A DNA stretch of 64,000 nt from an uncultured Alphaproteobacteria bacterium (GTDB lineage Bacteria > Pseudomonadota > Alphaproteobacteria > HIMB59): contig CABYRL010000006.1 in assembly GCA_902521465.1 (NCBI GenBank), positions 1 to 64,000 on the forward strand, given 5' to 3'. The position numbers were made by a program, and so were the translations under genes. Every line of letters starts with the position of its first letter. The first letter of the stretch is position 1. Shown piece by piece: positions 43,517 to 57,132 of this stretch. The notes below the pieces were generated by a model that worked only from the letters and a program-made list of their open reading frames with translations, made no database searches and had not been told where the DNA came from.

Positions 43517-44083
43517 TTATTTTGCTTTTTCTATGTAAGTTAATTCAGACGTGTTTATTCTAATTTTGTCACCAGTTTCAATATGAGGTGGAACGGTAAC
43601 TCTTACACCGTTAGTTAACAATGCTGGTTTATATGATGAAGATGCTGTTTGTCCTTTAACAACTGCCTCTGTTTCGGCTATTTGTACAGTAAGACTTTCA
43701 GGAGGATTAACATTCATTGGTTTTTCATCATAAAACTCAATAGAGACTCCCATCCCATCTTCAAGAAATTTTGCTGTATTTTCATTTACTTGGCTAATAT
43801 TCATAACTATTTGCTCATAGGTTTGGGTATTCATAAAAGTAAAATCATCTCCACTACGAAATAAAAATTGATGATCTATCTCTTCAGCACGAATTTTTTC
43901 AATAGACTCTGAACTTCTAAATCTCTCATTTAATTTTGACTGGTTTGAAATATTTTTCAACTCAGCTTGAATATATGCCCCACCTTTTCCAGGTTGTGTA
44001 TGGGATAATTTAGCGACTTTCCAAATCGAATTATTATGTTGAATTATATTTCCTATCTTTAAGTCGTTAGCATTAATTTTCAT
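43517..44083 (-). CDS. efp: Elongation factor P
   Basis: A 188-aa translation factor that rescues ribosomes stalled at polyproline. It has the KOW-like N-terminus with PGKGGAYIQAELKN; the tip Lys (about residue 33) is the position modified by EpmA in other bacteria. It has EQIVMNISQVNENTAKFLEDGM in the middle and IETGDKIRINTSELTYIEK at the C-terminus. The start overlaps the end of the aldolase gene by 4 bases. No epmA or epmB is in the window. Confidence 0.94.
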   Translation of the reverse strand: MKINANDLKIGNIIQHNNSIWKVAKLSHTQPGKGGAYIQAELKNISNQSKLNERFRSSESIEKIRAEEIDHQFLFRSGDDFTFMNTQTYEQIVMNISQVNENTAKFLEDGMGVSIEFYDEKPMNVNPPESLTVQIAETEAVVKGQTASSSYKPALLTNGVRVTVPPHIETGDKIRINTSELTYIEKAK

Positions 44084-44997
44084 TTAGATTTATAAATTTG
44101 AATCATTCGCTCTAATAGAGCCAAGGCATCTACTCTAGATCTTTGAAAACAATTTCTTCCAATAATTGAGCCGTTTCCATCTCCCTGGTGAATTGCAAGC
44201 ACCTCATCCATTAATGCTTGATCATCTTTTGCATCTCCACCCGAAAATACTACTAAGCGTTTTCCATCAAATGCAACTTTTTTGATATGAGCCACACGAT
44301 CCTTTAAAGTGCTTATAGGTATACTATTATCTTCAAATGCTTTTTTAGTTGGGTCTTCTTCTAAAAAATCACTGGGAAGTTTTACTTTAATAATATTTGC
44401 CCCTAATAGAGCAGACATGTGTGCTGCATATGAAATTATGTTCATTGCTGTTTCACCTTTTTTGCTAATTTTTGAACCTCTCGCATAAGCCCATAAAACA
44501 ACAGCAAGTCCTTTTTCTTTAGCCTCGAAACTAAGTCTTTTAAATTCTTCCATTAATTCAAAATTATGATCAGAACCAGGATAAATCGTAAAACCTATTG
44601 CAGCACATCCTAATTTTAATGCATCATTTACACTCCCAGTCACAGCTTGATCAAGAGATGTTGCAAGAGTATTAGAGCTATTAATTTTTAATATAGTTGG
44701 AATTTGACCATTATAATTACCAGAACTTGTTTGAAGTAAACCAAGAGGAGCAGCATAAGCAGATAAACCAGCATCTATTGCAAGTTGGTGATGATAATTT
44801 GGATCGTACGCCTGGGAATTTACAGCGAAGCTTCTATCAGGCCCGTGTTCAAAACCCTGATCGACAGGTAAAATTATCATTCTTCCAGTTCCGCCTAACT
44901 TTCCATGTCCCAAAATTTTCATAAGATTTGATCTCACACCGATATTCTCGTGTGTGTAGTTTGATATAATTTTTCTTGTTGTCTTTGTAACTTTCAT
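44080..44997 (-). CDS. fbaB: Class I (DhnA-type) fructose-bisphosphate aldolase
   Basis: A 305-aa Schiff-base aldolase of the archaeal/DhnA type. It has LPVDQGFEHGP (about residues 42-52), GFTIYPGS (about 134-141), NIIKVKLPSDF with the Schiff-base Lys (about 198-208), and FSGGDAKDDQ (about 241-250). It interconverts fructose-1,6-bisphosphate and triose phosphates. It is 8 bases downstream of gap; the pgk gene that usually lies between these two in alphaproteobacteria is missing here. Confidence 0.92.
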   Translation of the reverse strand: MKVTKTTRKIISNYTHENIGVRSNLMKILGHGKLGGTGRMIILPVDQGFEHGPDRSFAVNSQAYDPNYHHQLAIDAGLSAYAAPLGLLQTSSGNYNGQIPTILKINSSNTLATSLDQAVTGSVNDALKLGCAAIGFTIYPGSDHNFELMEEFKRLSFEAKEKGLAVVLWAYARGSKISKKGETAMNIISYAAHMSALLGANIIKVKLPSDFLEEDPTKKAFEDNSIPISTLKDRVAHIKKVAFDGKRLVVFSGGDAKDDQALMDEVLAIHQGDGNGSIIGRNCFQRSRVDALALLERMIQIYKSK

Positions 44998-45005
44998 AAT
45001 TGCTC

Positions 45006-46022
45006 TTATAAATTACACACTTGAGCAGTTGTCTCAAGCATTCTATTTGAAAATCCCCACTCGTTATCATACCAAGTCAACACTCTACCAAAATTATCTG
45101 ATACCGTTGTTGTTTCACTTAGATCTAAAATAGAGCTCCTAGCGTCATGATTATAATCACTTGATACCTTAGGGTCTGTATCTACCCCTAAAATACCTTT
45201 AAGTGAGCTATTTGCATATTCTTGAAATTTATTATTTAAATTTTCAGTGGTTATATTTTTTTTTGTATTAAATTTAAAATCTACCAGAGATACATTAGGA
45301 GTTGGAACTCTTATCGCAGTACCGTCTAATTTTCCCATTAAATGAGGCAGAACGAGGCCAACAGCTTTTGCTGCACCTGTACTTGTAGGTATGATGTTAT
45401 TTGCTGCTGCTCTTGCTCTTCTGAGATCTTTATGAAATGTGTCTACAGTATTTTGATCTCCTGTATAAGAGTGAATAGTTGTCATGTATCCACTTTCAAT
45501 TCCAAACTCTTGATCTATAACAAAAGCTACAGGCGCAAGACAATTAGTTGTGCAAGAGGCATTAGATATTACTTGATGATCTATATTTATATTTTTGTTA
45601 TTAACTCCCTGGACAACTGTTATGTCTGCACCAGAACATGGAGCAGAAACTATAACTTTGCTTGCACCACTTTCTATATGAGATATTGCCTTTTCTTTTG
45701 ATGCAAAAATACCCGTGCACTCTAAAATAATGTCGACTTTCTTATCTTTCCATTTCAAATCATAAGGGTTTCTTTCAGATGTAACAGTTACTGTATTTTC
45801 ACCTATTATGAATTGCTCATTGGAGATTTTATTTATCTCCTTATTGAAAGTCCCGTGAATACTATCATATTTAAGTAAGTGAATATTTGAGTCAATATCT
45901 GCTAAGTCGTTTATATAACTTATTTCAAATTGATCACTAAAATCATTTAATCTCTCCAAAAATGCGCGATAAACTAGCCTGCCTATTCTACCAAAACCAT
46001 TAATCGCTACTTTTTTTTTCAT
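45006..46022 (-). CDS. gap: Glyceraldehyde-3-phosphate dehydrogenase
   Basis: A 338-aa dehydrogenase. It has the NAD motif INGFGRIGRLVYRA (residues 7-20), the catalytic NASCTTNCLAP (about 153-163), HSYTGDQ and DNEWGFSNRM near the C-terminus. The start overlaps the stop of tkt (ATGA). It operates in glycolysis or gluconeogenesis together with the aldolase and transketolase of this operon. Confidence 0.95.
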   Translation of the reverse strand: MKKKVAINGFGRIGRLVYRAFLERLNDFSDQFEISYINDLADIDSNIHLLKYDSIHGTFNKEINKISNEQFIIGENTVTVTSERNPYDLKWKDKKVDIILECTGIFASKEKAISHIESGASKVIVSAPCSGADITVVQGVNNKNINIDHQVISNASCTTNCLAPVAFVIDQEFGIESGYMTTIHSYTGDQNTVDTFHKDLRRARAAANNIIPTSTGAAKAVGLVLPHLMGKLDGTAIRVPTPNVSLVDFKFNTKKNITTENLNNKFQEYANSSLKGILGVDTDPKVSSDYNHDARSSILDLSETTTVSDNFGRVLTWYDNEWGFSNRMLETTAQVCNL

Positions 46023-47950
46023 TTTGTTTTAATCTTTCTTAATATTTTACTAGATACAGTTTCTGTTGTTAAACCAAATTTTTTAAAAACTTCTTTTCCA
46101 GGTGCACTAGCACCAAAATTATCTAATCCAAATATATTTTCATATTTTGTGTACTTATTCCAATACATTGTCGACCCAGCTTCGATTACAAAAGTTTCAT
46201 TAGATTTTGATTTTAATAAATTATTTTTAAAAGTTTTTGACTGCTTTTCAAAAATAGATGTTGAAGGCATTGAAATGACTTTTGCAATAATACCATCACC
46301 TCTAATTTTTATAGCAACGTTGATAGCTAAAGACACTTCTGATCCAGTAGCTATAATAGTAATATCATTATTAATTTTTGGACCATATATAACGTAAGCA
46401 CCTCTAAATTTTTTTGAGTCTAATTTTTTATTTGAAATTTGTGGCAAATTTTGTCTTGAAAGACAGATAAATGAAGGTGCATCATTAATTTTCAAAGCCT
46501 CTCTCCAACATACTATTGTTTCTTTAAGATCACAGGGTCTAAAAACATAACTATTTGGTATGAGTCTTAACATATTAATTTGTTCAATAGGTTGATGAGT
46601 AGGTCCATCTTCACCTAGTCCAATAGAGTCGTGTGTGAAAACTTGTATAGGATTAATTTTCATTAGTGCAGCTAAACGAAGACTTGGCTTCATGTAATCA
46701 GCAAAGCTCAAAAAAGTTCCTGAATATGTTTTGTAAATTTTGGTAGCAGCAATACCATTCATTATAGCAGCCATACCATGCTCTCTTACACCATAATGGA
46801 TATATTGTCCCGCTATGTTCATGCTATCCATTACGGACATTTCTTTACCTTTGGTATTATTGGAGCCAGTTAAGTCCGCAGAGCCTCCAAGTATCGGATG
46901 ATCTTTTTTGAAATAATGTAATATTGCTTCAGAGGATTTTCTAGTAGCCTGATCAGAATTAAAATTTTTTAAATCTATCTCTATTTTATTAAATAGCTTA
47001 TCTATATCTCTATTTGATAAATTTGTGTGAGATATTGATTTAGTTTTTTTGTATATTCGTAAATTTTTGGTTGATGAATTCCTCCAAATTTTTAAAAGTT
47101 TATCTGGAATTTGAAAAGATTTTTCATTCCAAGATAATTTACTTCTAGTTAATTTCACTTCCTCTGAACCTAAGGGTGAGCCATGTGATGATGCTTTTGC
47201 AGATTTATTTGGAGAACCAAATCCAATAGTAGTTTTAAAATTTAGTAAACAAGGTACTTTTGATACTTGTGCTTTTTTTAAAAGTTTATAAATATTTTTA
47301 TGATCATGACCTTTCCCGCTATGTACCTCCCAATTTACTGATTTAAATCTAAGGTTTGTGTTATCACTAAAAGCTAAATCTGTGGATCCATCTATACTAA
47401 TTTTGTTGTTATCGTATATTAGTATCAAATTATTAAGTTTTAAGTGTCCAGCTAAACTTACTGCCTCTTGGCTAATTCCCTCCATTAGACAGCCATCACC
47501 ACAAAAAACATATACTTTTGGGGCTTTAGACAATTTTTTCTCTTTTGAAAGCTTTTTAAGCGCTATGGCCATTCCTACCGCATTCGAGATTCCTTGTCCA
47601 AGAGGACCAGTCGTTATTTCTATACCAGCATCTGGTTCATATTCAGGATGTCCAGCCGTAATGTAGCCCAATTGTCTGAAATTTTTAATTTGCGAAATTG
47701 TCATTTTTTTATAACCGGTGAGGTATAAAAGTGAGTAAAGCAACATCGAACCATGCCCATTAGATAAAACGAATCGATCTCTGAGTAACCAGTTTGGATC
47801 CTTGGGATTATGAACAAGAAAATCATGAAAGAGCACTGTGGCAATGTCAGCCATTCCCATCGGCATACCAGGATGACCAGATTTTGCTTTTTCTACCGCA
47901 TCGATTGATAAAAATCTAATACAGTTTGCTAATTTAGTATAATTTTTCAA
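46019..47950 (-). CDS. tkt: Transketolase
   Basis: A 643-aa thiamine-diphosphate enzyme of the pentose-phosphate pathway. It has SGHPGMPMGMADIATVLF (about residues 24-41), GPLGQGISNAVGMAIA (about 115-130), the ThDP/Mg motif GDGCLMEGISQEA (about 155-167) through DNNKIS, and HDSIGLGEDGPTHQPIEQ in the pyrimidine-binding domain. It heads the tkt-gap-fbaB-efp-suhB-rpmE-trcR minus-strand run and is divergent from the zapA operon, with only 35 bases between the start codons. Confidence 0.94.
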   Translation of the reverse strand: MKNYTKLANCIRFLSIDAVEKAKSGHPGMPMGMADIATVLFHDFLVHNPKDPNWLLRDRFVLSNGHGSMLLYSLLYLTGYKKMTISQIKNFRQLGYITAGHPEYEPDAGIEITTGPLGQGISNAVGMAIALKKLSKEKKLSKAPKVYVFCGDGCLMEGISQEAVSLAGHLKLNNLILIYDNNKISIDGSTDLAFSDNTNLRFKSVNWEVHSGKGHDHKNIYKLLKKAQVSKVPCLLNFKTTIGFGSPNKSAKASSHGSPLGSEEVKLTRSKLSWNEKSFQIPDKLLKIWRNSSTKNLRIYKKTKSISHTNLSNRDIDKLFNKIEIDLKNFNSDQATRKSSEAILHYFKKDHPILGGSADLTGSNNTKGKEMSVMDSMNIAGQYIHYGVREHGMAAIMNGIAATKIYKTYSGTFLSFADYMKPSLRLAALMKINPIQVFTHDSIGLGEDGPTHQPIEQINMLRLIPNSYVFRPCDLKETIVCWREALKINDAPSFICLSRQNLPQISNKKLDSKKFRGAYVIYGPKINNDITIIATGSEVSLAINVAIKIRGDGIIAKVISMPSTSIFEKQSKTFKNNLLKSKSNETFVIEAGSTMYWNKYTKYENIFGLDNFGASAPGKEVFKKFGLTTETVSSKILRKIKTK

Positions 47951-47985
47951 TGGAATAACTTTTCTTAATAACTAATAATTAATGT

Positions 47986-48246
47986 ATGAACGAATTTCAA
48001 CAACAAATACTTCAAAAAATCGAGCAAATTGCATCAAAACTTCAGAATTATAAAACTAATAATCAAGAACTAATAAATGAGAAACAAGAATTAAAAGCCA
48101 AGATAGAATATTTACAAAGAAGAGAGGTAGAATTATTAAGCGAATTAGAAAATAACAAACTTGAGTTATCTGAAAAATCTCAACTTATTGATCAAGCAAC
48201 GAATAAAATTGAGGAATTATTGGGTTCAATAGATATAGATGGCTAA
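47986..48246 (+). CDS. DUF4164-like coiled-coil protein
   Basis: An 86-aa protein that is almost entirely coiled coil, rich in Glu, Gln, Lys and Leu with heptad spacing from about residue 3 to 80. A small coiled-coil gene of the DUF4164 kind precedes zapA in many alphaproteobacteria, which is the main reason for the call. It may partner ZapA in the way ZapB does in gamma-proteobacteria. It overlaps zapA by 8 bases. Confidence 0.65.
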   Translation: MNEFQQQILQKIEQIASKLQNYKTNNQELINEKQELKAKIEYLQRREVELLSELENNKLELSEKSQLIDQATNKIEELLGSIDIDG

Positions 48247-48571
48247 TTTAACTCTAACAATTGGAGGAAGACCACTAAAAATACAATGCTCCGATGATAA
48301 TGTTGAAACAGTAAAAGAGATTGCTTCCTCAATTAGTAAACTTATAGAATATGAGAAGAGAGAGAATGTACCTTTTTTAACATCGACACTTATTGCCTAT
48401 CTTAAATCCATGGAAGATGTTTTAAAAAAAGAAAAAATATTGCAAGACTCATTGAACAAGAAATTATTTTATGAGAGTCGTATTCAAGAATTACAAAATG
48501 AAAATAATCATTTAAAATCTGACATTGAGCAAATTTTCAAAAAACTAAATGATAATATAATCATTGAATAA
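48239..48571 (+). CDS. zapA: Cell-division protein ZapA
   Basis: A 110-aa FtsZ-ring-associated protein. The N-terminal domain LTLTIGGRPLKIQCSDDNVE (residues 4-23) and VKEIASSISKLIEYEKR are typical; the C-terminal half is a coiled coil that forms the antiparallel dimer. It overlaps the coiled-coil gene and the 5-FCL gene by 8 bases each. No 6S RNA space exists between zapA and the 5-FCL gene, unlike many proteobacteria. Confidence 0.85.
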   Translation: MANLTLTIGGRPLKIQCSDDNVETVKEIASSISKLIEYEKRENVPFLTSTLIAYLKSMEDVLKKEKILQDSLNKKLFYESRIQELQNENNHLKSDIEQIFKKLNDNIIIE

Positions 48572-49127
48572 AAAACAAATTCGAAAACATCACTTGGACC
48601 TAAGAGTGCAACTAAGCACTTCGGATTTAAATATTTTTTCTAATAAAATAAATTCAAAAATATTAGATTTAATTGAAAAAATTAATCCAAATAGTTCTGT
48701 TGGCTTATTTTATCCATATAAAAATGAGGTTGATGTATTAAAAATTTCTAATGATTTAATAAATAAAAATATAAAATGTTTACTTCCAAAAGTAATATCA
48801 AAAGGATCTTCTTTAAAGTACTGTGAATACAACCCTCATAGTCCAAATTTAGAAAAAGGTTTTGGCGGTATCATGGAACCCAAGGGTGAAAAGACATTAG
48901 ATCCTGATATAATTATAGCATCATGCTCTGCATTTAATGAACAAGGTTTTAGAGTAGGCTATGGAGGTGGTTTTTTTGATAGAACTATTGAAGAATTGAG
49001 AAAAAAAGGAAATTTAAAAACTATTTTAGCAGCTTTTGAAATTCAAAAAACCAAGTACAATTTTCAGGAGAGTTTTGACCAAAAAGTAGATTATATTTGT
49101 TCAGAACAAAAAATCTATTCTTTATGA
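48564..49127 (+). CDS. fthC: 5-formyltetrahydrofolate cyclo-ligase
   Basis: A 187-aa enzyme (YgfA type) that converts 5-formyl-THF to 5,10-methenyl-THF with ATP. It has KKQIRKHHLDLR (residues 3-14), VGLFYPYKNEVD (about 46-57), LPKV and the signature RVGYGGGFFDRTIEELR (about 130-146). It starts with TTG (ttgaataaaaaa) overlapping the end of zapA; its TGA overlaps the next ATG. Confidence 0.9.
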   Translation: MNKKQIRKHHLDLRVQLSTSDLNIFSNKINSKILDLIEKINPNSSVGLFYPYKNEVDVLKISNDLINKNIKCLLPKVISKGSSLKYCEYNPHSPNLEKGFGGIMEPKGEKTLDPDIIIASCSAFNEQGFRVGYGGGFFDRTIEELRKKGNLKTILAAFEIQKTKYNFQESFDQKVDYICSEQKIYSL

Positions 49128-49939
49128 ATTTTTTGGTTATAGGAGATGTTGTTGGAAGATCAGGTAGAACAGCTCTTAAAGAAAATTTAAAAAAAATTCA
49201 AGATCAATTTAAAATTAGCTTTACAATAATTAATGCTGAAAATTCTGCTGGTGGTTATGGACTTACAGGAAAAATATACGAAGAGCTTATAAGTTGGGGC
49301 GCTGATGCTATTACCCTAGGAAACCATGCTTGGAAACAAAGAGAAATAATAGAATATATGGATAAAAACCCAAATCACAATATTATCAGGCCTTTAAATT
49401 TTGAAGTCGGTTCTCCTGGTAGAGGGTTTAAAATTTTTACTCATGAAAATGGTAAAAGAATTTTGGTAAGCCAAGTTCATGGTCAAACATTTATTGATCT
49501 TCCCTTAAGTAATCCTTTTAATTCTATTGACACTCAACTTTTATCTATAATTAATGATCATGAAATAGATTACTCATTTTTAGAGGTGCATGCTGAGGTA
49601 ACATCTGAAAAAAATGGTATAGCACAAAATTATGATGGAAAATTTACAGCTATTTATGGAACTCATGTTCATATTCCAACCTTAGACGCTAGGGTATTAG
49701 AAAAGGGTACTTGTTTTCAAACTGATATTGGCATGACAGGAGATTATAATTCTGTTATTGGTATGAAAAAAGAGAGTGCAATTAAAAGAATGAGAACTGG
49801 GTCAAACTCACATAGGTTGGAACCCGCTGAGGGATTGGCAACTATTTCTGGAGCAGTCATTACTACAAATGAGGGGGAAAAAAATTCAATTCAATCTATT
49901 CAAATAGGTGGCGTTTTGGATAGTAATTTATTATCTTAG
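49124..49939 (+). CDS. ymdB: YmdB-family metallophosphoesterase (TIGR00282)
   Basis: A 271-aa dinuclear metal phosphoesterase, shown in other bacteria to hydrolyse 2',3'- or 3',5'-cyclic nucleotides. It has LVIGDVVGRSGR (residues 4-15), NAENSAGGYGLT (about 37-48), TLGNHAWKQRE (about 63-73), FLEVHAEVTSEKNG (about 148-161) and YGTHVHIPTLDARVL (about 175-189). The frame is open 9 codons further, but the ATG at 49124, overlapping the upstream TGA, matches the family start. Confidence 0.9.
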   Translation: MNFLVIGDVVGRSGRTALKENLKKIQDQFKISFTIINAENSAGGYGLTGKIYEELISWGADAITLGNHAWKQREIIEYMDKNPNHNIIRPLNFEVGSPGRGFKIFTHENGKRILVSQVHGQTFIDLPLSNPFNSIDTQLLSIINDHEIDYSFLEVHAEVTSEKNGIAQNYDGKFTAIYGTHVHIPTLDARVLEKGTCFQTDIGMTGDYNSVIGMKKESAIKRMRTGSNSHRLEPAEGLATISGAVITTNEGEKNSIQSIQIGGVLDSNLLS

Positions 49940-49942
49940 CTC

Positions 49943-50683
49943 ATGGCTGGACATTCAAAATTTAAAAATATTCAATATCGCAAAGGTGCTCAAGATAAAA
50001 AAAGAGCAAAACAATTTGCAAAAATTGGAAGAGAAATTCAAATAGCTGTGAAAATAGGAGGAACTGACCCAGAGTCTAATCCAAGATTGAGACTTGCAAT
50101 GACAAATGCTCGAAGTGTAAATATGCCTAAGGATAATGTAGAAAGAGCTATTAATAAAAATATTACCGATGCTTCTGACTATTCACAAGTTCGCTACGAG
50201 GGTTATGGTCCATTTGGAACAGCTTTTATAGTTGAGGCGTTAACAGATAATAAAAATAGAACAGCTTCTGAAATTAGATCTATTTTTTCTAAGAATGGAG
50301 GAAATTTGGGAGAGACAGGAAGTGTAAGCTTTAATTTTAATAAAGTAGGAGAAATACAACTCAAAAATGAGATAGATGATAGCGCACTTGAGGATTTGCT
50401 TGACCATGGTTTAGAAGATTACAATACAGATGAAGGCTTAACATATCTTTATTCCTCTTTTGAAGACTTAGCATCTTTTGAGAAAATATTAGTAGATAAA
50501 AAATTTGATATTGAATGCGCAAATGTCATATGGAAGCCAAATTTAAGCGTAAAAATTGAAAAAAAGGAAGAGCTTGAAAAACTTATTAGATTAAATGAAG
50601 AGTTAGAAGATAACGATGATGTTCAAAATTGTTTTTCAAATCTTGATTTTGACAGTGAACTATTAGAGGTTAGTAATGCCTGA
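49943..50683 (+). CDS. yebC: YebC/PmpR-family protein (TACO1 type)
   Basis: A 246-aa protein with the conserved MAGHSKFKNIQYRKGAQDKKRAKQF-type start, KIGREIQIAVKIGG (about 27-40), NVERAINK and RYEGYGPFGTAFIVEALTDNKNRT. YebC proteins act as translation factors for difficult motifs and/or as transcription regulators. It sits at the head of the segment that in other alphaproteobacteria continues with ruvC-ruvA-ruvB and tolQ. It overlaps the small nuclease-like gene by 8 bases. Confidence 0.93.
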   Translation: MAGHSKFKNIQYRKGAQDKKRAKQFAKIGREIQIAVKIGGTDPESNPRLRLAMTNARSVNMPKDNVERAINKNITDASDYSQVRYEGYGPFGTAFIVEALTDNKNRTASEIRSIFSKNGGNLGETGSVSFNFNKVGEIQLKNEIDDSALEDLLDHGLEDYNTDEGLTYLYSSFEDLASFEKILVDKKFDIECANVIWKPNLSVKIEKKEELEKLIRLNEELEDNDDVQNCFSNLDFDSELLEVSNA

Positions 50684-51002
50684 TAAAGCTTGGAAAAACA
50701 GGGAAAGACTTGTTGCGAAGTTTTTTGGAGGTATGAGAAATGCCCTCAGTGGGATCAATTCAAAAGTTACTCATTCTGATGTAATTCACGATAATTTATT
50801 TATTGAGTGTAAATTAAGAGCTAAACATACTGCCATTAAATTATGGGATGATACAAAATCTTTAGCTGATAAAGAAAAAAAGACTCCAGTTATTGCATTA
50901 TGTGAAAAAAATAGACCTGGTTTTTGGATAATGGTACATTCAGATGATTTTGAGTATGTCTCTAAAGAGCTAAAGAATAAAAAGATAATTGATGAAGAAT
51001 AA
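50676..51002 (+). CDS. Small putative PD-(D/E)XK nuclease in the ruvCAB position
   Basis: A 108-aa protein. The arrangement E10, D35 and E44-x-K46 (in SDVIHDNLFIECKLR), followed by PVIALCEKNRPGFWIMV, matches the core of PD-(D/E)XK nucleases, especially short resolvase-like proteins often carried by phages. It overlaps yebC by 8 bases and is 3 bases before tolQ, exactly where ruvC, ruvA and ruvB normally lie. A Holliday-junction or branched-DNA function is an inference from fold motif and position. There is no sign of transfer in base composition. Confidence 0.65.
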   Translation: MPDKAWKNRERLVAKFFGGMRNALSGINSKVTHSDVIHDNLFIECKLRAKHTAIKLWDDTKSLADKEKKTPVIALCEKNRPGFWIMVHSDDFEYVSKELKNKKIIDEE

Positions 51003-51005
51003 TTA

Positions 51006-51704
51006 ATGGAAGAGGTAGTCAACTTAGCATCCCTTGAAGGTTCAGTAGATTTCTCAATGATGGGAATGTTTCTAAAGTCTGATTTGGTTGTAAAATTTGT
51101 AATTATATTATTAGTGATTTTTTCAATTCAATCTTGGAAGACAATTATTCAGAAAATTTTACTAATTAATAAACTCAAGAAAATATCAAAAAAATTTGAA
51201 AACCACTTTTGGTCAGGAGTGTCTTTGGATGAACTGTACCAGCAAATTGACAATTTTGATCAGGAGAGTTTTTCAAATATTTTCAGAAATATAATGAATG
51301 AATATGAAAAATCTCGAATACAAAAAAATAAAGTAGACTCAGCTTTCATTCAAAGACTTTACACCTCTCTTGATTTAAGTATTGCTGTTGAAGACACAAA
51401 TTTAAATAAAGGACTGTCCTTTTTGGCTTCTTCTGGATCTGTAGCACCTTTTATAGGGTTATTTGGTACAGTTTGGGGAATTATGAATAGTTTTCAAGCA
51501 ATTGCTATTGCTCAAAATACTAATCTCGCTGTGGTAGCACCTGGTATTGCAGAAGCTTTATTCGTAACTGCTTTGGGTCTTTTTGTTGCTATTCCTTCAA
51601 CTGCTTACTACAACCACATAACTTCAAAAATTGATAACTATTTGTCAGAAGCTGAGAGTTTTGGTAAAGACTTGGTTAATATAATTTCACGCCAAGTTAA
51701 ATAG
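51006..51704 (+). CDS. tolQ: Tol-Pal system protein TolQ
   Basis: A 232-aa inner-membrane proton-channel subunit with three helices (about residues 28-46, 128-150 and 170-190). It has the MotA/TolQ/ExbB signature APFIGLFGTVWGIMNSFQAIA (about 137-157) and VAPGIAEALFVTALGLFVAIPS (about 165-186). With TolR it energises TolA for outer-membrane constriction at division. It is the first gene of tolQRAB-pal-cpoB. Confidence 0.95.
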   Translation: MEEVVNLASLEGSVDFSMMGMFLKSDLVVKFVIILLVIFSIQSWKTIIQKILLINKLKKISKKFENHFWSGVSLDELYQQIDNFDQESFSNIFRNIMNEYEKSRIQKNKVDSAFIQRLYTSLDLSIAVEDTNLNKGLSFLASSGSVAPFIGLFGTVWGIMNSFQAIAIAQNTNLAVVAPGIAEALFVTALGLFVAIPSTAYYNHITSKIDNYLSEAESFGKDLVNIISRQVK

Positions 51705-51708
51705 ATAC

Positions 51709-52104
51709 ATGAGAAAAAAACACAGACCTGTTTCAAATATAAATGTTACGCCAATGGTTGATGTCATGTTGGTATTACTTATTGTATTCATGGTCACCGC
51801 TCCTCTCCTAACTGTGGGTGTTCCCATAAATTTACCAAAAGTTGAGGCTAATTCTTTAGATGCACAAAAGGAACCTCTAGAAATCTCAATTAATGAAAAT
51901 AATGATATTTACTTAGGTGAAGAACTAATACCTTTTGAAGAGTTAGTGTTAAAAGTCAAAACTATAGCTGGCTCCAATACTGACATAAGAATTTTTTTAA
52001 GAGCTGATACCTCAATTAACTACGGTGAGGTGATGAAAGTTCTTGGTGCTTTGAATACATCTGGTTTTTTAAAAATTGCTCTTGTAACGAAAAAACCTAG
52101 TTAA
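51709..52104 (+). CDS. tolR: Tol-Pal system protein TolR
   Basis: A 131-aa ExbD/TolR protein with a basic N-terminus, one helix carrying the essential Asp in INVTPMVDVMLVLLIVFMVTAPLL (Asp about residue 18), and a periplasmic domain ending in LGALNTSGFLKIALVTK. It is 4 bases after tolQ and its stop abuts the tolA TTG. Confidence 0.94.
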   Translation: MRKKHRPVSNINVTPMVDVMLVLLIVFMVTAPLLTVGVPINLPKVEANSLDAQKEPLEISINENNDIYLGEELIPFEELVLKVKTIAGSNTDIRIFLRADTSINYGEVMKVLGALNTSGFLKIALVTKKPS

Positions 52105-53109
52105 TTGTCTGCTATTACACTATTTAATCCCCTCAGACATTTAATCTTGTTGATTGAAAATTTCAGCTATAAAAAAAGTGATTTTTATTTTCAAATATTC
52201 TCTTTTCTATTACATCTTTTAATTTTGATACCGATGATAAATTTTACTTTTGAAAAAAAAATCAGTGATATTCCAATGATTTTGCCTGTCGAAATGTTCA
52301 TTATTGAAGAAGAGACAGCCGCACCTGAGTTTGTTGAGGAGATAAATGAAATTGTTCCAACATTCCAAGAAGAGACTCCGAAGCAAAATGAAACTGAAGC
52401 TATTGAACCAGATTTAAAAGAAATAACATCACAAGAGCTAACTGATCCAATAAATCAGGATACTAATGAAGAAGTGTTAATTGATAACTCCGCAGACAAA
52501 ACAAACGAATTTATAATCGATGAGAAAGTAAAACCCGAAATTAAAAAACCAAAAGAGGAGACACCTCCACCGATTGAAAATGATTTTGAGATAAAATTAA
52601 AACAAAAACCTGAACCTAAAGAGATACCTGAACCCAAAAAGGATATTGAGATAGTTCTTAAGAAAAAGCCAGTAAAGAAAACTTTCAACGTTAGTACTGT
52701 TCTGAAAGATCTAGAAAATCAAGATAAAGAATTTAAAAAAGAGCAGGAAGCATCTGAAGTTAAACAAGAGGAAGTTTTTACAGAAAAAGTTGGACCAACG
52801 ATGACTATTTCAGAGATTGATCTATTAAGGCAACAATTACATGGCTGTTTAAATCTTAATGTTGGTGTCGCCAATTTAAAAGAAATAAAGCCTGTCATTT
52901 ACATCGAAGTTAACCCTGATCGAACTGTAAAAAGTTCTAAAGTTGTTAATAGAGAAAAATTAAACGATCCATCATTTAGAACAGCTGCTGAAGCTGCAAT
53001 GAGAGCGGTAAATAATCCAGATTGTAGCCCTCTTTTATTACCTGTAGATAAATATGAACAATGGAAAGAGATTAACTTTACTTTTGATTTCAGCTGGATG
53101 TTTGATTAA
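52105..53109 (+). CDS. tolA: Tol-Pal system protein TolA
   Basis: A 334-aa protein with one N-terminal transmembrane helix (about residues 31-48), a long Glu/Pro/Lys-rich periplasmic linker (about 60-230) and a C-terminal TolA/TonB-C domain: LRQQLHGCLNLNVGV (about 236-250), FRTAAEAAMRAVNNPDCSPLLLP with a conserved Cys pair, and NFTFDFSWMF at the end. It begins with TTG directly after the tolR stop; no closer ATG precedes the membrane helix. It spans the periplasm from TolQR to TolB and Pal. Confidence 0.9.
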   Translation: MSAITLFNPLRHLILLIENFSYKKSDFYFQIFSFLLHLLILIPMINFTFEKKISDIPMILPVEMFIIEEETAAPEFVEEINEIVPTFQEETPKQNETEAIEPDLKEITSQELTDPINQDTNEEVLIDNSADKTNEFIIDEKVKPEIKKPKEETPPPIENDFEIKLKQKPEPKEIPEPKKDIEIVLKKKPVKKTFNVSTVLKDLENQDKEFKKEQEASEVKQEEVFTEKVGPTMTISEIDLLRQQLHGCLNLNVGVANLKEIKPVIYIEVNPDRTVKSSKVVNREKLNDPSFRTAAEAAMRAVNNPDCSPLLLPVDKYEQWKEINFTFDFSWMFD

Positions 53110-53153
53110 TAAAAATTTAATATATAAATTCCAAAATTGATTAAAAATTTTTT

Positions 53154-54473
53154 ATGATTAGAAAGATTCTAGTATTTTTGTTTTTTTCACTAAATGCAAA
53201 CGCTGCTCTTGAAGTAACTATTGCTCAAGGAAAAGTTGAACCTACTCCTATAGCTATAACCCAAATTTTTGGAGCAGACTCAGATACAGCTAGATACGGG
53301 AACACTCTTAGACAGATAATTTCTAACAATCTCACAAATTCTGGCCTTTTTTATACAGTTAATGAGGATCTATATATTCAATCTGACAATTTAGTTGAAA
53401 AAGTTCCACGGTTTGAGGACTGGAAGCTTGTCAAAGCCCAGTTCTTACTAAGTGCAGATGTTAGTAAAACGGATAAAGGTATTAGACTGCGAATGAGGCT
53501 TTATGATGTCTTTAATGCAAAAGAGATAGAAAAATTACAATTAACAATACCTGATGAAAATTTAATAAGAAGAGTAGGTCATACAGTAAGCGATATTGTT
53601 TACGAGAGGATTACTGGTGAAACAGGATACTTTGATACAAGAATTGTTTATGTTTCTGAAATTGGCCCTCTAGACCAAAGAGTAAAAAGATTAGCAATCA
53701 TGGACCAAGATGGACATTTAGATAGTCATCAATTTTTAACAGATGGAAAAAATTTGGTGTTAACTCCGCGCTTTGCACCTAATAAACAATTAATAACGTA
53801 TATGGAATATAAAAATAATCTTCCAAGAGTTTATATTTACAATCTTAAAACAGGTGAAAGAGAGATTGTTGGAGATTTTCCTGGAATGACTTTTGCACCA
53901 AGATTTTCACCAGATAGCCAAAGTGTAGTAATGTCTTTTTCAGACCCTAACAATGCAGCAAATTCAGAAATATATTTAATGGATTTAAACACCCGATCAC
54001 GCTCAAGATTAACAAATGACTCTGGAATTGATACATCACCCTCTTTTTCTCCTGATGGAGAAAAAATTGTTTTTAATTCTGATCGTGGTGGGAGTCCTCA
54101 GTTATTCATTATGGATAAGAATGGAGATAACATTAAAAGAATTTCAAAAGGTAAAGGCGTGTATGGAAACCCAGTTTGGTCTCCAAGAGGTGATTTGATA
54201 GCATTTACCAAGTTGACACAGGGCAATTTTCATATAGGCGTTATGGATATAAATGGAAACAACGAAAGAGTGATTGTTAGGGATTTTGCATTAGAGTCTC
54301 CTGCTTGGTCCCCAAATGGTAGATATTTAATATTTCATAGACAAAAAAGGTCAAATCTTGATGGCACTGGTGGGGAAGTTACAATACATTTTATCGATAT
54401 TACTGGCTACAATGAGAGGGTCATCCCGACTCCAAGGGACGGAAGCGACCCTGCTTGGTCACCTTTATTATGA
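53154..54473 (+). CDS. tolB: Tol-Pal system protein TolB
   Basis: A 439-aa periplasmic protein with a signal peptide (1 to about 17, ending NANA), an N-terminal domain (FEDWKLVKAQFLLSADVSK) and a six-bladed beta-propeller with repeated TPRFAPN, PRFSPDSQSV, PSFSPDGEKIVFNSDRGGSPQ, PVWSPRGDLIAF, PAWSPNGRYLIF and PAWSPLL units from about residue 200. It docks to Pal and OmpA-like proteins. It lies 44 bases after tolA. Confidence 0.95.
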   Translation: MIRKILVFLFFSLNANAALEVTIAQGKVEPTPIAITQIFGADSDTARYGNTLRQIISNNLTNSGLFYTVNEDLYIQSDNLVEKVPRFEDWKLVKAQFLLSADVSKTDKGIRLRMRLYDVFNAKEIEKLQLTIPDENLIRRVGHTVSDIVYERITGETGYFDTRIVYVSEIGPLDQRVKRLAIMDQDGHLDSHQFLTDGKNLVLTPRFAPNKQLITYMEYKNNLPRVYIYNLKTGEREIVGDFPGMTFAPRFSPDSQSVVMSFSDPNNAANSEIYLMDLNTRSRSRLTNDSGIDTSPSFSPDGEKIVFNSDRGGSPQLFIMDKNGDNIKRISKGKGVYGNPVWSPRGDLIAFTKLTQGNFHIGVMDINGNNERVIVRDFALESPAWSPNGRYLIFHRQKRSNLDGTGGEVTIHFIDITGYNERVIPTPRDGSDPAWSPLL

Positions 54474-54593
54474 TAATTCATTAGAAATCAACAAAATTTA
54501 AAAAAAATTAAATAAGAATTGTCTTGATTTCCAAAAAATTCAGTGTTTATTTACCTAAACTATAGTAAGAATATATTTACGCGGAGATTTATA

Positions 54594-55088
54594 ATGTTAA
54601 AAAATTTGTTTATGCTTATTGTTGCGGGTTTTTTCCTTGCTTCATGTGCTGCTACCAATACTGAACAAGGCGGAGACACAGATGCAGCTTCAGCTAGTGC
54701 AAGTTCATCCTCAGGGGGTGAAATTACAGCTGGCACCCAAGAAGATCTGATTGTTAACGTAGGTGACAGAGTCTTCTTTGAATTTGATAGTTCAGAACTC
54801 ACTGTTGATGCACAAGCAACACTTGATGCACAGGCAGCTTGGTTAATGCAATACCCTGACACTAACATAACTGTTGAAGGTCATGCAGATGAAAGAGGTA
54901 CTCGTGAGTACAACTTAGCTTTAGGAGATAAAAGAGCATTTTCTGTTTATTCTTATCTAGCTCAGGCTGGAATTGATACTAATAGAATGGAATATGTAAG
55001 TTGGGGTAAAGAAAGACCTGAAGTAATTGGATCTGATGAAACTGCTTACAGTCAAAATAGACGCGGCGTAACCCTAGTAAGTAATTAA
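54594..55088 (+). CDS. pal: Peptidoglycan-associated lipoprotein Pal
   Basis: A 164-aa outer-membrane lipoprotein: signal MLKNLFMLIVAGFFLASC with lipobox ASC, a Ser/Ala-rich linker and an OmpA-like peptidoglycan-binding domain (VFFEFDSSELT, TVEGHADERGTREYNLALGDKRA, QNRRGVTLV). The frame is open 17 codons upstream, but the ATG at 54594 gives the signal peptide and has a GGAG 8 bases before it. TATAGT at 54561-54566 could be a separate promoter. Confidence 0.95.
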   Translation: MLKNLFMLIVAGFFLASCAATNTEQGGDTDAASASASSSSGGEITAGTQEDLIVNVGDRVFFEFDSSELTVDAQATLDAQAAWLMQYPDTNITVEGHADERGTREYNLALGDKRAFSVYSYLAQAGIDTNRMEYVSWGKERPEVIGSDETAYSQNRRGVTLVSN

Positions 55089-55103
55089 TTAAAATTTCAT
55101 TGA

Positions 55104-55126
55104 GGTGCTCTTTTTAAAAGAGCACC
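55104..55126 (+). promoter_or_regulatory. Stem-loop after pal
   Basis: GGTGCTCTTT-TTA-AAAGAGCACC: perfect 10-bp stem with 3-base loop, 15 bases after the pal stop, no U-tract. Like the one after aapJ, it probably protects the 3' end of an abundant mRNA or partly stops transcription before cpoB. Confidence 0.7.
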
Positions 55127-55136
55127 CAAAACTTCC

Positions 55137-56186
55137 ATGAAAAAAATTAACAAAATTTTGGTTATTTTTTTTCTAGTTCTTTTTAGTAACCAATCTAATT
55201 CTGAAAATCACAATCAAGTATCTGTTGAATTAGACAGAATTAAAAATGACATAATTGATCTTCAAAAGTTTGTTTATAACAACAAGTCATCACTAGGTAA
55301 TAATTCTAACTCAAATGCAAACAATGATTTAGGAGAATTAAAGATATTAATCAATGAGATTTCAAAAAGTATAATTTCATTAGAAAAACAAATTTCAGAT
55401 ATTAAAGATGATGTAAAAAATCTATACTCTTTATACACATTACCTGACTCTGACAAAAAAAAAATTATTAGCGCATCTGATCAATTAAACATTGAAGAAA
55501 GCTCCTCAAATATTGTAGAGAATTCAGAAAATATTGTAGAGAATTCAGAAGATGATCAATTATTAGGTCAAATCAGACTATCTGATCTTGAAGGAGATGA
55601 AATAAAAAATATAGAAATACCAAATGAGGAGTCTGATGAGAATATTTCTTTATCAGGTCTTGAAAAAGAGGAATTAGATGAAATAGAGATAAAATCTATC
55701 TCAGAAGTTAATACCTCAATGCTTAATGATTTAGATAAGCTGATAGAAGAGAGAGAAATAGAGCTTAATAAGCCAATAATTGACGTTGAATTAGAGTTAA
55801 AAAATGCAAAAACAAGCTTTGCAAGTTTTGATAATAAATCTGCTATAGAAAGTTTACTACTGATAATTAATTCAAATACAGATCAAGATGAATATCTAGC
55901 TGAAACTTATTATCTTCTTGGCAGGACTTATTTTATGGAGAATGATATAATGGAAGCTGTAAAATATTTTGGAATAAGACACAGAGATTTCTCATCATTC
56001 TCTAAATTTAAGTCTGAAAATTACTTTTGGCTTGGAAAGTCTCTCTTCAGTATTGGAGATCAAGAAAATGGATGTTTAATTATGGAAGATTTAATTTTTT
56101 CAAATACTTATGTTGAAAGCAAAGAAGTAATTGAGTCTGCTAAATCTCTCCAATCTGAAAAAGATTGTGGTTTAATTATTGACTGA
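55137..56186 (+). CDS. cpoB: CpoB/YbgF-like Tol-Pal-associated periplasmic protein
   Basis: A 349-aa protein with a signal peptide (1 to about 22), an N-terminal coiled coil (about 28-105), an acidic low-complexity middle with a tandem 7-residue repeat, and C-terminal TPR-like helices (AETYYLLGRTYFMENDIMEAVKYF, NYFWLGKSLFSIGD; about 255-345). CpoB couples peptidoglycan synthesis to outer-membrane constriction. The TPR part is short (about two to three repeats), and the acidic middle is longer than usual. It overlaps tilS by 8 bases. Confidence 0.8.
   Translation: MKKINKILVIFFLVLFSNQSNSENHNQVSVELDRIKNDIIDLQKFVYNNKSSLGNNSNSNANNDLGELKILINEISKSIISLEKQISDIKDDVKNLYSLYTLPDSDKKKIISASDQLNIEESSSNIVENSENIVENSEDDQLLGQIRLSDLEGDEIKNIEIPNEESDENISLSGLEKEELDEIEIKSISEVNTSMLNDLDKLIEEREIELNKPIIDVELELKNAKTSFASFDNKSAIESLLLIINSNTDQDEYLAETYYLLGRTYFMENDIMEAVKYFGIRHRDFSSFSKFKSENYFWLGKSLFSIGDQENGCLIMEDLIFSNTYVESKEVIESAKSLQSEKDCGLIID
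55509..55550 (+). repeat. Perfect tandem duplication of 21 bp in cpoB
   Basis: Two identical 21-bp copies (55509-55529 and 55530-55550) encode NIVENSE twice in frame. Identity at the DNA level suggests a recent duplication in the flexible acidic linker. Confidence 0.9.
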
Positions 56187-57132
56187 AGAAGTGTCCCTTT
56201 TACATAGTGTAAAAAATTACCTTCAAAATAATATTAAAGTTAATGACAAAATATTGATTTCAATTTCTTGTGGTTTGGATAGTACAGTCTTATATGATGC
56301 AATAATTAGATCAAAATATTTAAATACAAAAAAAATATATTATTTAATTTTTGATCACCAAATAAGATCTGAAGGGAAATATGAAATTAAACAATTTATT
56401 AAATTTTATAATCTTGCAAATAAAAATCTTCTCATTAAGAAATTGTTTTTAAAGGATAAATCAAAAGGTTTTCAAGAAAAATCAAGATCTAGTAGATATG
56501 ATTTTTTATATAAATATTCAAAAAAAAAAGATATTAAGGATATTTTTTTAGGCCACCACCTCGATGACTTAAATGAAACCTACTTCTTAAGAAAAACCCA
56601 ACAATCTGGTGCAACTGGATTATCTAATATTTTTCTAGATAAATACAAGAGTCTAAAATTACATCGACCATTAAAGAAATACACAAAAGAGCAAATTAAA
56701 AGTTATGCCATAAATAATAGACTTACATGGTTTGAAGATAGAAGTAACTTAGAGTTAAATTACACAAGAAACAAAATAAGAAATTTTTTATATTCAAAAA
56801 AACTCTTCAATCAAATTAATAAAGAGAGATTAAACTTCTTTAAAATATTTCATTTATATCAGTTGCACAAAAATTTTTTCAAAAGAAAAAGAAATAATAT
56901 TTTTGAAATTGACACAGATAAGTTCCACTATTTGAATGAAAATCTTAAATTTTTTGTAGTACAGTCATTTTATTATGAAAATCGTCTTTTACTAAAAAAA
57001 CAAATTAGAGATGAAAACATTAAGAATTTTGTAAAAATACTTAAAACTCACATTATTAGCAATAAAGAAATGTCAGTATTTTCAGGGAAAATTGGTGTCA
57101 TTAATAAAAAAACATGTATAAATCTTACTTAG
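56179..57132 (+). CDS. tilS: tRNA(Ile)-lysidine synthase
   Basis: A 317-aa N-type ATP-pyrophosphatase that changes C34 of the CAU-anticodon tRNA-Ile to lysidine. The PP-loop reads SCGLDS (residues 30-35), whereas the family has SGGxDS; Gly is replaced by Cys. Other landmarks remain: FDHQIR (about 58-63), [14 protein letters not shown] (about 124-137), and the YTRNKIRN segment (about 195). The C-terminal tRNA-binding part is much reduced compared with the 430-aa E. coli enzyme. It starts with TTG, overlapping cpoB. Confidence 0.88.

Follow-up and report, generated by a model that had tools for sequence, protein, structure and literature searches.

The window analysed here is a 64,000-nucleotide stretch (contig CABYRL010000006.1, positions 1 to 64,000) of an uncultured alphaproteobacterial genome that comprises 17 contigs and 1,341,546 bases and is 91.8% complete. 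Three genes on the forward strand define the locus of interest, with a short ORF that begins at an ATG codon lying between two conserved flanks:

49943..50683, + strand: yebC (TACO1/YebC; PF01709 and PF20772), upstream flank of the slot
50676..51002, + strand: 108-aa phage-type PD-(D/E)XK nuclease, predicted Holliday junction resolvase of the phrog_2002 family, candidate catalytic residues E10, D35, E44 and K46 (from the ORF, a PHROG match, invariant residues and hhalign)
51006..51704, + strand: tolQ (PF01618), downstream flank of the slot

The preliminary description had placed a single 108-aa gene here, overlapping yebC by 8 bases and preceding tolQ by 3, and the coordinates bear this out: yebC ends at 50683 and tolQ starts at 51006. 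The genes ruvCAB are not present in this slot. The nuclease gene was detected in 89 of 100 related genomes, including all 20 that were at least 90% complete, and comparison with seven relatives from the same genus gave dN values of about 0.009–0.098 against dS values of about 0.34–1.8. Because the gene is carried by 89 of 100 relatives and dN lies far below dS, the ORF is not a chance one; it is a real, constrained gene. Its surroundings are equally stable. Across 130 cellular locus records, consisting of 50 whole-genome loci (the window's among them) and 80 genome-contig loci in overlapping sets, yebC adjoins the nuclease in all 130 and tolQ in 129, the window's own locus included. Contig records of the relatives stem mostly from single-cell or metagenome genomes labelled Pelagibacteraceae or uncultured Alphaproteobacteria, and the sole record without an adjacent tolQ lies on a palindromic contig. 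Contig CACKTS010000014.1 carries two nuclease copies in opposite orientation, each equally far from its contig end; they were rejected as evidence of a second gene, as the layout looks instead like an assembly or amplification palindrome.

Assignment of the protein to a family relied on profile matches and residue patterns. Residues 3–102 of 108 matched positions 16–120 of the 130-position PHROG profile phrog_2002, ‘Holliday junction resolvase’ (E = 2e-8), a label that reflects annotation rather than a functional test. The same profile was matched by two phage relatives and by the protein of G120, a genome of another family (E = 2.5e-11 to 3.3e-8), and the two phage relatives scanned additionally matched phrog_244, ‘RusA-like Holliday junction resolvase’ (E = 7.6e-4 and 3.7e-6). 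The window protein itself gave nothing above the Pfam cut-off and nothing in NCBIfam; specifically, the Pfam scan yielded no match to RuvC (PF02075), archaeal Hjc (PF01870) or PDDEXK_15 (PF24608). Its sole Pfam match, to an IS1595 transposase model (E = 0.17, below cut-off), and the best PDB matches to the single protein, RanBP2 fragments with E values of 0.13 and above, were discarded as noise.

Residues E10, D35 and E44-x-K46, from which a small PD-(D/E)XK-like nuclease had been proposed, were found at those positions and are invariant in alignments of 17, 22 and 48 relatives. Across the 17-row alignment, which spans two families of the order, the unvarying positions are W6, E10, R21, L24-S25-G26, D35, H38, E44-C45-K46 and R48. 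The signature in the window reads E10 - S34 D35 - E44 C45 K46; S34 is replaced by Ala in many relatives, so that the conserved part is only E-xD-ExK. The protein thus has the conserved E...D...(D/E)xK residues of the PD-(D/E)XK superfamily. We compared three profiles: A3, with 48 rows of the window protein's family; A4, with 34 rows of a PDDEXK_15-type family; and A5, representing the slot family of the bacterial family f44 introduced below. Alignment of A3 to A4 with hhalign gave a probability of 94.8 (E = 5e-8) and placed E10, D35 and E44-x-K46 on corresponding A4 residues. All four A4 members scanned exceeded the PF24608 cut-off, and three of them showed sub-threshold Hjc matches (PF01870). 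A4 also aligned to A5 (probability 95.6), with A3 reaching a probability of only 17.7 against A5. Residue pattern and A3–A4 alignment agree on the small PD-(D/E)XK-like nuclease, and it is this profile comparison that supports a restriction-endonuclease-like core.

Searches of the PDB contributed little. A3 produced a single match at chance level (E = 0.1), and one protein of the type found in family f160 (below) produced chance matches only. The A4 search placed designed proteins, and an uncharacterised one, ahead of Hjc (4tkd, E = 0.29; 1hh1, E = 1.5), which we took for noise with a weak lead in it rather than for evidence; with A5, Hjc_15-6 (7bgs) alone was returned (E = 1.1).

Phage relatives of the slot gene

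A scan of viral contigs returned 98 related stretches. The proteins encoded by the best 80 share 61–78% identity with the window protein, and some of them come from contigs of 36–38 kb; a second viral scan recovered largely the same contigs. Among these best 80, a gene for the terminase large subunit starts within 600 bases downstream in 77 and about 680 bases on in two, and the contig ends in the remaining one. Upstream, the gene for the small terminase subunit could be placed within 1.5 kb in all but two of the 57 phage relatives with room to show it (55 of 57). Neither yebC nor tolQ was found beside any of the 80 phage copies in the DNA read around them. Annotated phage genomes contained only two distant relatives, at about 41–43% identity, and a plasmid search returned no relatives of the nuclease. 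One of the two, in Bacteroides phage BS162P1 (L251, 4323-5315, + strand), is a fusion of an HNH-like N-terminal region, recognised by eye, with a C-terminal nuclease domain of the window's family; it is annotated as ‘DNA endonuclease’ with the note ‘I-HmuI’.

The direction of transfer was addressed with a gene tree of 107 columns, a weak tree with one very long outgroup branch. In the best tree, cellular rows fall among phage rows: those of family f2 are placed next to the phages L201 and L208 (98/94 support), those of f1, the window's family, form a branch of their own, and G120 remains unplaced. Well-supported branches force two changes for f1 and f2 together. In topology tests, a single clade uniting f1 and f2 was not rejected (p-AU = 0.131), and the same held for a single clade comprising every cellular row (p-AU = 0.096). 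With cellular rows among phage rows, yet single clades not rejected, transfer from phage to host appears the likelier direction, short of proof. The reverse history, in which the cellular gene is older and phages took it from these bacteria, would turn a phage displacement into a host invention. It would accommodate the grouping of L201 and L208 with the f2 rows and draws on the two unrejected single clades. We nevertheless regard it as unlikely given the interspersed cellular rows and the two forced changes, the nearly constant phage position beside terminase genes, and the identity of the more distant kin found, which are phage families or phage proteins.

RuvABC absence and the same slot in other lineages

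RuvC is present in 361 of 386 genomes in our sample of the class. The order yebC then ruvC, described beforehand as usual, was recovered there: yebC was found in nine of the ten best-scoring RuvC loci and lies directly upstream in eight. RuvC was not found in the window genome or in any of the six sampled members of its order (window genome included), one of which, from the window's genus, is a single contig of 1,410,127 bases. A normal ruvCAB set elsewhere in the genome, named in the preliminary description as the observation that would speak against a replacement, was looked for and not found. In 24 order members, neither RuvA nor a genuine RuvB was detected, and RecG was found in 16 of the 17 tested, one of the 16 below the Pfam cut-off, with no match in the order genome G017.

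The RuvB result depends on how RuvB_N matches are read. These occurred in all 40 genomes of a chosen set that includes the 24 order members, 38 of them over the cut-off, and were rejected as real RuvB in all but five genomes, which matched at E = 5.6e-74 or better and served as the standard. Within the order, matches were weak only, with best E values of 5.7e-8 to 3.2e-4; several passed the Pfam cut-off, and those belonged mostly to ORFs of about 420, 540 or 815 aa. Because the order reaches 5.7e-8 at best against 5.6e-74 or better in the five reference genomes, its matches are not genuine RuvB. The whole RuvABC set is thus missing, not RuvC alone, which goes beyond what was first claimed for this locus, as do the close phage relatives of the gene.

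The nuclease shows the complementary distribution. It is present in all 24 order members of the chosen set. In the class sample, profile A2 detected the family in seven of 386 genomes, the six order members and G120, all of them among the 25 without RuvC; none of the 361 RuvC-bearing genomes carries it. Fisher's test gives p = 2e-9 for this exclusion with relatedness ignored, and the seven genomes probably represent no more than three independent events. All seven have both yebC and tolQ adjacent to the nuclease. G120 shares the order yebC - nuclease - tolQ and is without RuvC, RuvA and genuine RuvB. Phage-resolvase homology, distribution and slot position together argue for what had been suggested, namely that RuvC gave way to a non-homologous small PD-(D/E)XK nuclease.

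For other lineages, we read the gene after yebC in the RuvC-less genomes of the class sample. A phage-type resolvase occupies the slot in 15 of the 25: seven of the window type, four in family f44 and four in family f89. In f44, a protein of 168–170 aa follows yebC in all four genomes with a located yebC (G141, G252, G406 and G471), and both of the two scanned matched PF24608 (E about 2e-21) and phrog_244 (E = 1.3e-13 or better). At two of these loci (L266 and L267, from G141 and G252), a tilS-like and an ftsH-like gene, named by eye, come directly after the slot nuclease. No tolQ match was obtained in the L266 and L267 stretches, so the tol-pal block found behind the nuclease in the window is missing there.

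Family f89 has a RuvC-like protein of 164–165 aa in the slot in four of four genomes (G186, G283, G363 and G432), three of which were located as follows:

L264, 4408-4899, - strand: f89 slot protein, phrog_1770 family, MOC1-like
L265, 2070-2561, + strand: f89 slot protein, phrog_1770 family, MOC1-like
L269, 4931-5425, - strand: f89 slot protein, phrog_1770 family, MOC1-like

The three f89 proteins scanned matched phrog_1770 with E values of 4.9e-37 to 6.3e-36 and none matched PF02075; their family profile, A6, aligned to the chloroplast resolvase MOC1 (6kvn) at E = 9.7e-27. These relatives of MOC1 in bacteria and phages may be relevant to the origin of the plant enzyme. In a sample of the f89 order, the slot protein was present in 71 of 118 genomes. 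Among 20 listed genomes without it, 19 belong to the sister family f160 and one to f89; 27 more are also without it. In f160, a PD-(D/E)XK protein of 123–127 aa lies between yebC and a tolQ homologue in all 13 loci read (L410–L422) of the 19 listed genomes, and four of four scanned matched phrog_244 (E = 1.1e-19 or better) with PF24608 just over the cut-off. On the viral contig L433 (1532-4372), a phage relative of the f160 slot protein is encoded two ORFs after a primase-polymerase-like ORF (by eye), an arrangement resembling the resolvase/prim-pol pair described in roseophage CRP-810 (PMC11288001).

None of the class-sample genomes from f44 and f89 yielded RuvC, and the three tested of each family yielded neither RuvA nor genuine RuvB; RecG was present in five of five f44 and four of four f89 genomes tested. 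The best phage identities were 63% for f44, 58% for f160 and 46% for f89, with values between slot families of 20–38%, several of them over few columns. Each of these three slot families thus has closer kin among phage proteins than among its counterparts in the slot. A joint tree put every one of the three PD-(D/E)XK slot families in a separate clade together with phage proteins (bootstrap 98–100), and a single clade of PD-(D/E)XK slot proteins was rejected (p-AU = 9.4e-13).

The other ten RuvC-less genomes showed no replacement gene in the stretches read and were not counted towards displacement. One (G337, of f44) gave no yebC match. Two f97 genomes, G288 and G368, have no ORF of at least 80 aa directly after yebC in the stretch read, and no significant trace of ruvC or ruvA was detected in G288 or in 1.5 kb of G368. 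The interval of about 2.1 kb that separates yebC from a ybgC-like gene in G288 (L270, 2642-4799) is devoid of ORFs of at least 80 aa; this genome measures 1.5 Mb, and the same genus includes a 5.6-Mb genome with RuvC. Four further genomes (G218, G274, G313 and G462) have same-family relatives with RuvC, and its absence from them may reflect gaps or losses. RuvA and RuvB are kept in the last three (G116, G176 and G285).

Families f89 and f160 are probably SAR11. Taken together, we consider it reasonably probable that the yebC–tolQ interval is a recurrent site at which, on at least four occasions and with four families, a lone phage-type resolvase took the place of RuvABC in small-genome alphaproteobacterial lineages that probably include SAR11. 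The four families counted are the phrog_2002 type of f1, f2 and f23, the long PDDEXK_15 type of f44, the short PDDEXK_15 type of f160 (counted by slot occupancy alone) and the MOC1/RuvC-like type of f89.

Proposed displacement and comparison with known systems

For the window's order, we propose with good confidence that a predicted phage-type Holliday junction resolvase displaced ruvCAB in place in the order's ancestor. The ruvCAB genes between yebC and tolQ would have been lost in that ancestor, and one phage-type gene would have taken over their place. The enzyme would be small, probably dimeric and metal-dependent, and of the kind that tailed marine phages encode next to the terminase. It would bind the four-way junctions to which RecA-dependent recombination and fork reversal give rise and would nick them in two opposing strands, with E10, D35, E44 and K46 arranged around Mg2+. 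Resolution would proceed without RuvA or RuvB, and branch migration, if needed, would fall to RecG. Junction cleavage, dimerisation, RuvAB independence and the phage-to-host direction are features that we infer for this 108-aa enzyme.

A precedent comes from phage bIL67, whose RuvC restored UV resistance to an Escherichia coli ruvABC deletion; the same source describes phage resolvases as typically promiscuous on branched DNA (PMC3864405). Given this rescue and promiscuity, it is feasible for one gene to stand in for RuvABC, while branch migration would remain with RecG. The simplest thought on why small-genome lineages would make the swap is that one short gene serves instead of three.

The promiscuity that makes replacement feasible also suits a different role, in which the protein is a housekeeping nuclease for other branched or damaged DNA, such as stalled forks or flaps, its place in the ruv slot is coincidental and Holliday junctions are handled otherwise or not at all. 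Another enzyme, such as RusA, a MOC1-like RuvC or RuvX/YqgF, could do the junction job in the window genome. A coincidental position fits poorly with the constancy of the slot (129 of 130 cellular locus records), the mutual exclusion of the family and RuvC (0 of 361) and the other resolvase families that other RuvC-less lineages carry in this slot, and we judge a housekeeping role of this kind quite improbable. A prophage remnant or recent insertion with no cellular function, for which one could cite the phage genes among the close relatives, is hardly credible and was rejected on conservation (20 of 20 relatives at least 90% complete carry the gene, which is intact across two families of the order), dN far below dS, a neighbourhood (44000-57000) in which inspection by eye picked out no further ORF as a phage gene, and the operon-like fit by yebC overlap and tolQ abutment.

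In-place displacement by a phage-type resolvase, our preferred reading, would be of interest since RuvABC ranks with the best-conserved recombination systems of bacteria, as RuvC in 361 of 386 class-sample genomes illustrates. A lineage in which RuvABC was not found lets one ask, in a natural setting, whether a small RuvAB-independent nuclease suffices for chromosomal Holliday junctions. The data suggest that phage genes took over a core repair step, and the different phage-type resolvases in the same interval turn one odd gene into what may be a repeatable evolutionary pattern. If true, some of the sea's most abundant bacteria would resolve recombination intermediates with RuvAB-independent phage enzymes. 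High recombination has been reported for marine oligotrophs, and slot replacement may bear on it. The kind of enzyme, a phage-type resolvase, is known; new would be the repeated in-place displacement of ruvCAB by different phage families, of which we found no description in the open full-text literature.

Among known systems, the RuvABC resolvasome shares the chromosomal slot and the presumed task with the window gene and differs in that RuvC, RuvA and genuine RuvB were not found here. RuvC has the RNase-H fold and acts in a complex coupled to the motor formed by RuvAB. The MOC1/PHROG 1770 family likewise fills the slot, in lineage f89, but is RuvC-like and dissimilar to the window protein (hhalign probability 0.1). 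Members of PDDEXK_15 (PF24608; phage putative PDDEXK endonuclease)/PHROG 244 occupy the slot in f44 and f160, and the PDDEXK_15-type profile A4 aligns to A3 with the catalytic residues matched; the window protein itself has no PF24608 match and is 22–32% identical to f44 and f160 slot proteins, with only 23 columns compared in one pair. The Thermus phage Tth15-6 enzyme Hjc_15-6 (PDB 7bgs) is a phage resolvase with a solved structure and demonstrated cleavage of branched DNA, for which the order E-SD-ExK has been proposed (PMC8805305). Hjc_15-6 and archaeal Hjc (PF01870) resemble the window protein as small nucleases with the residue order E - xD - ExK (E10-SD-EVK in Hjc_15-6 against E10-SD-ECK in the window; PMC8805305). 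Neither matches it in sequence, the link running through profile A4, itself weakly Hjc-like. With PHROG 2002 the window protein shares a near full-length match (E = 2e-8), and the best 80 of its 98 phage relatives show 61–78% identity to it. Those phage genes lie beside terminase genes, whereas the window gene is chromosomal and occupies the ruvCAB position of a cellular lineage.
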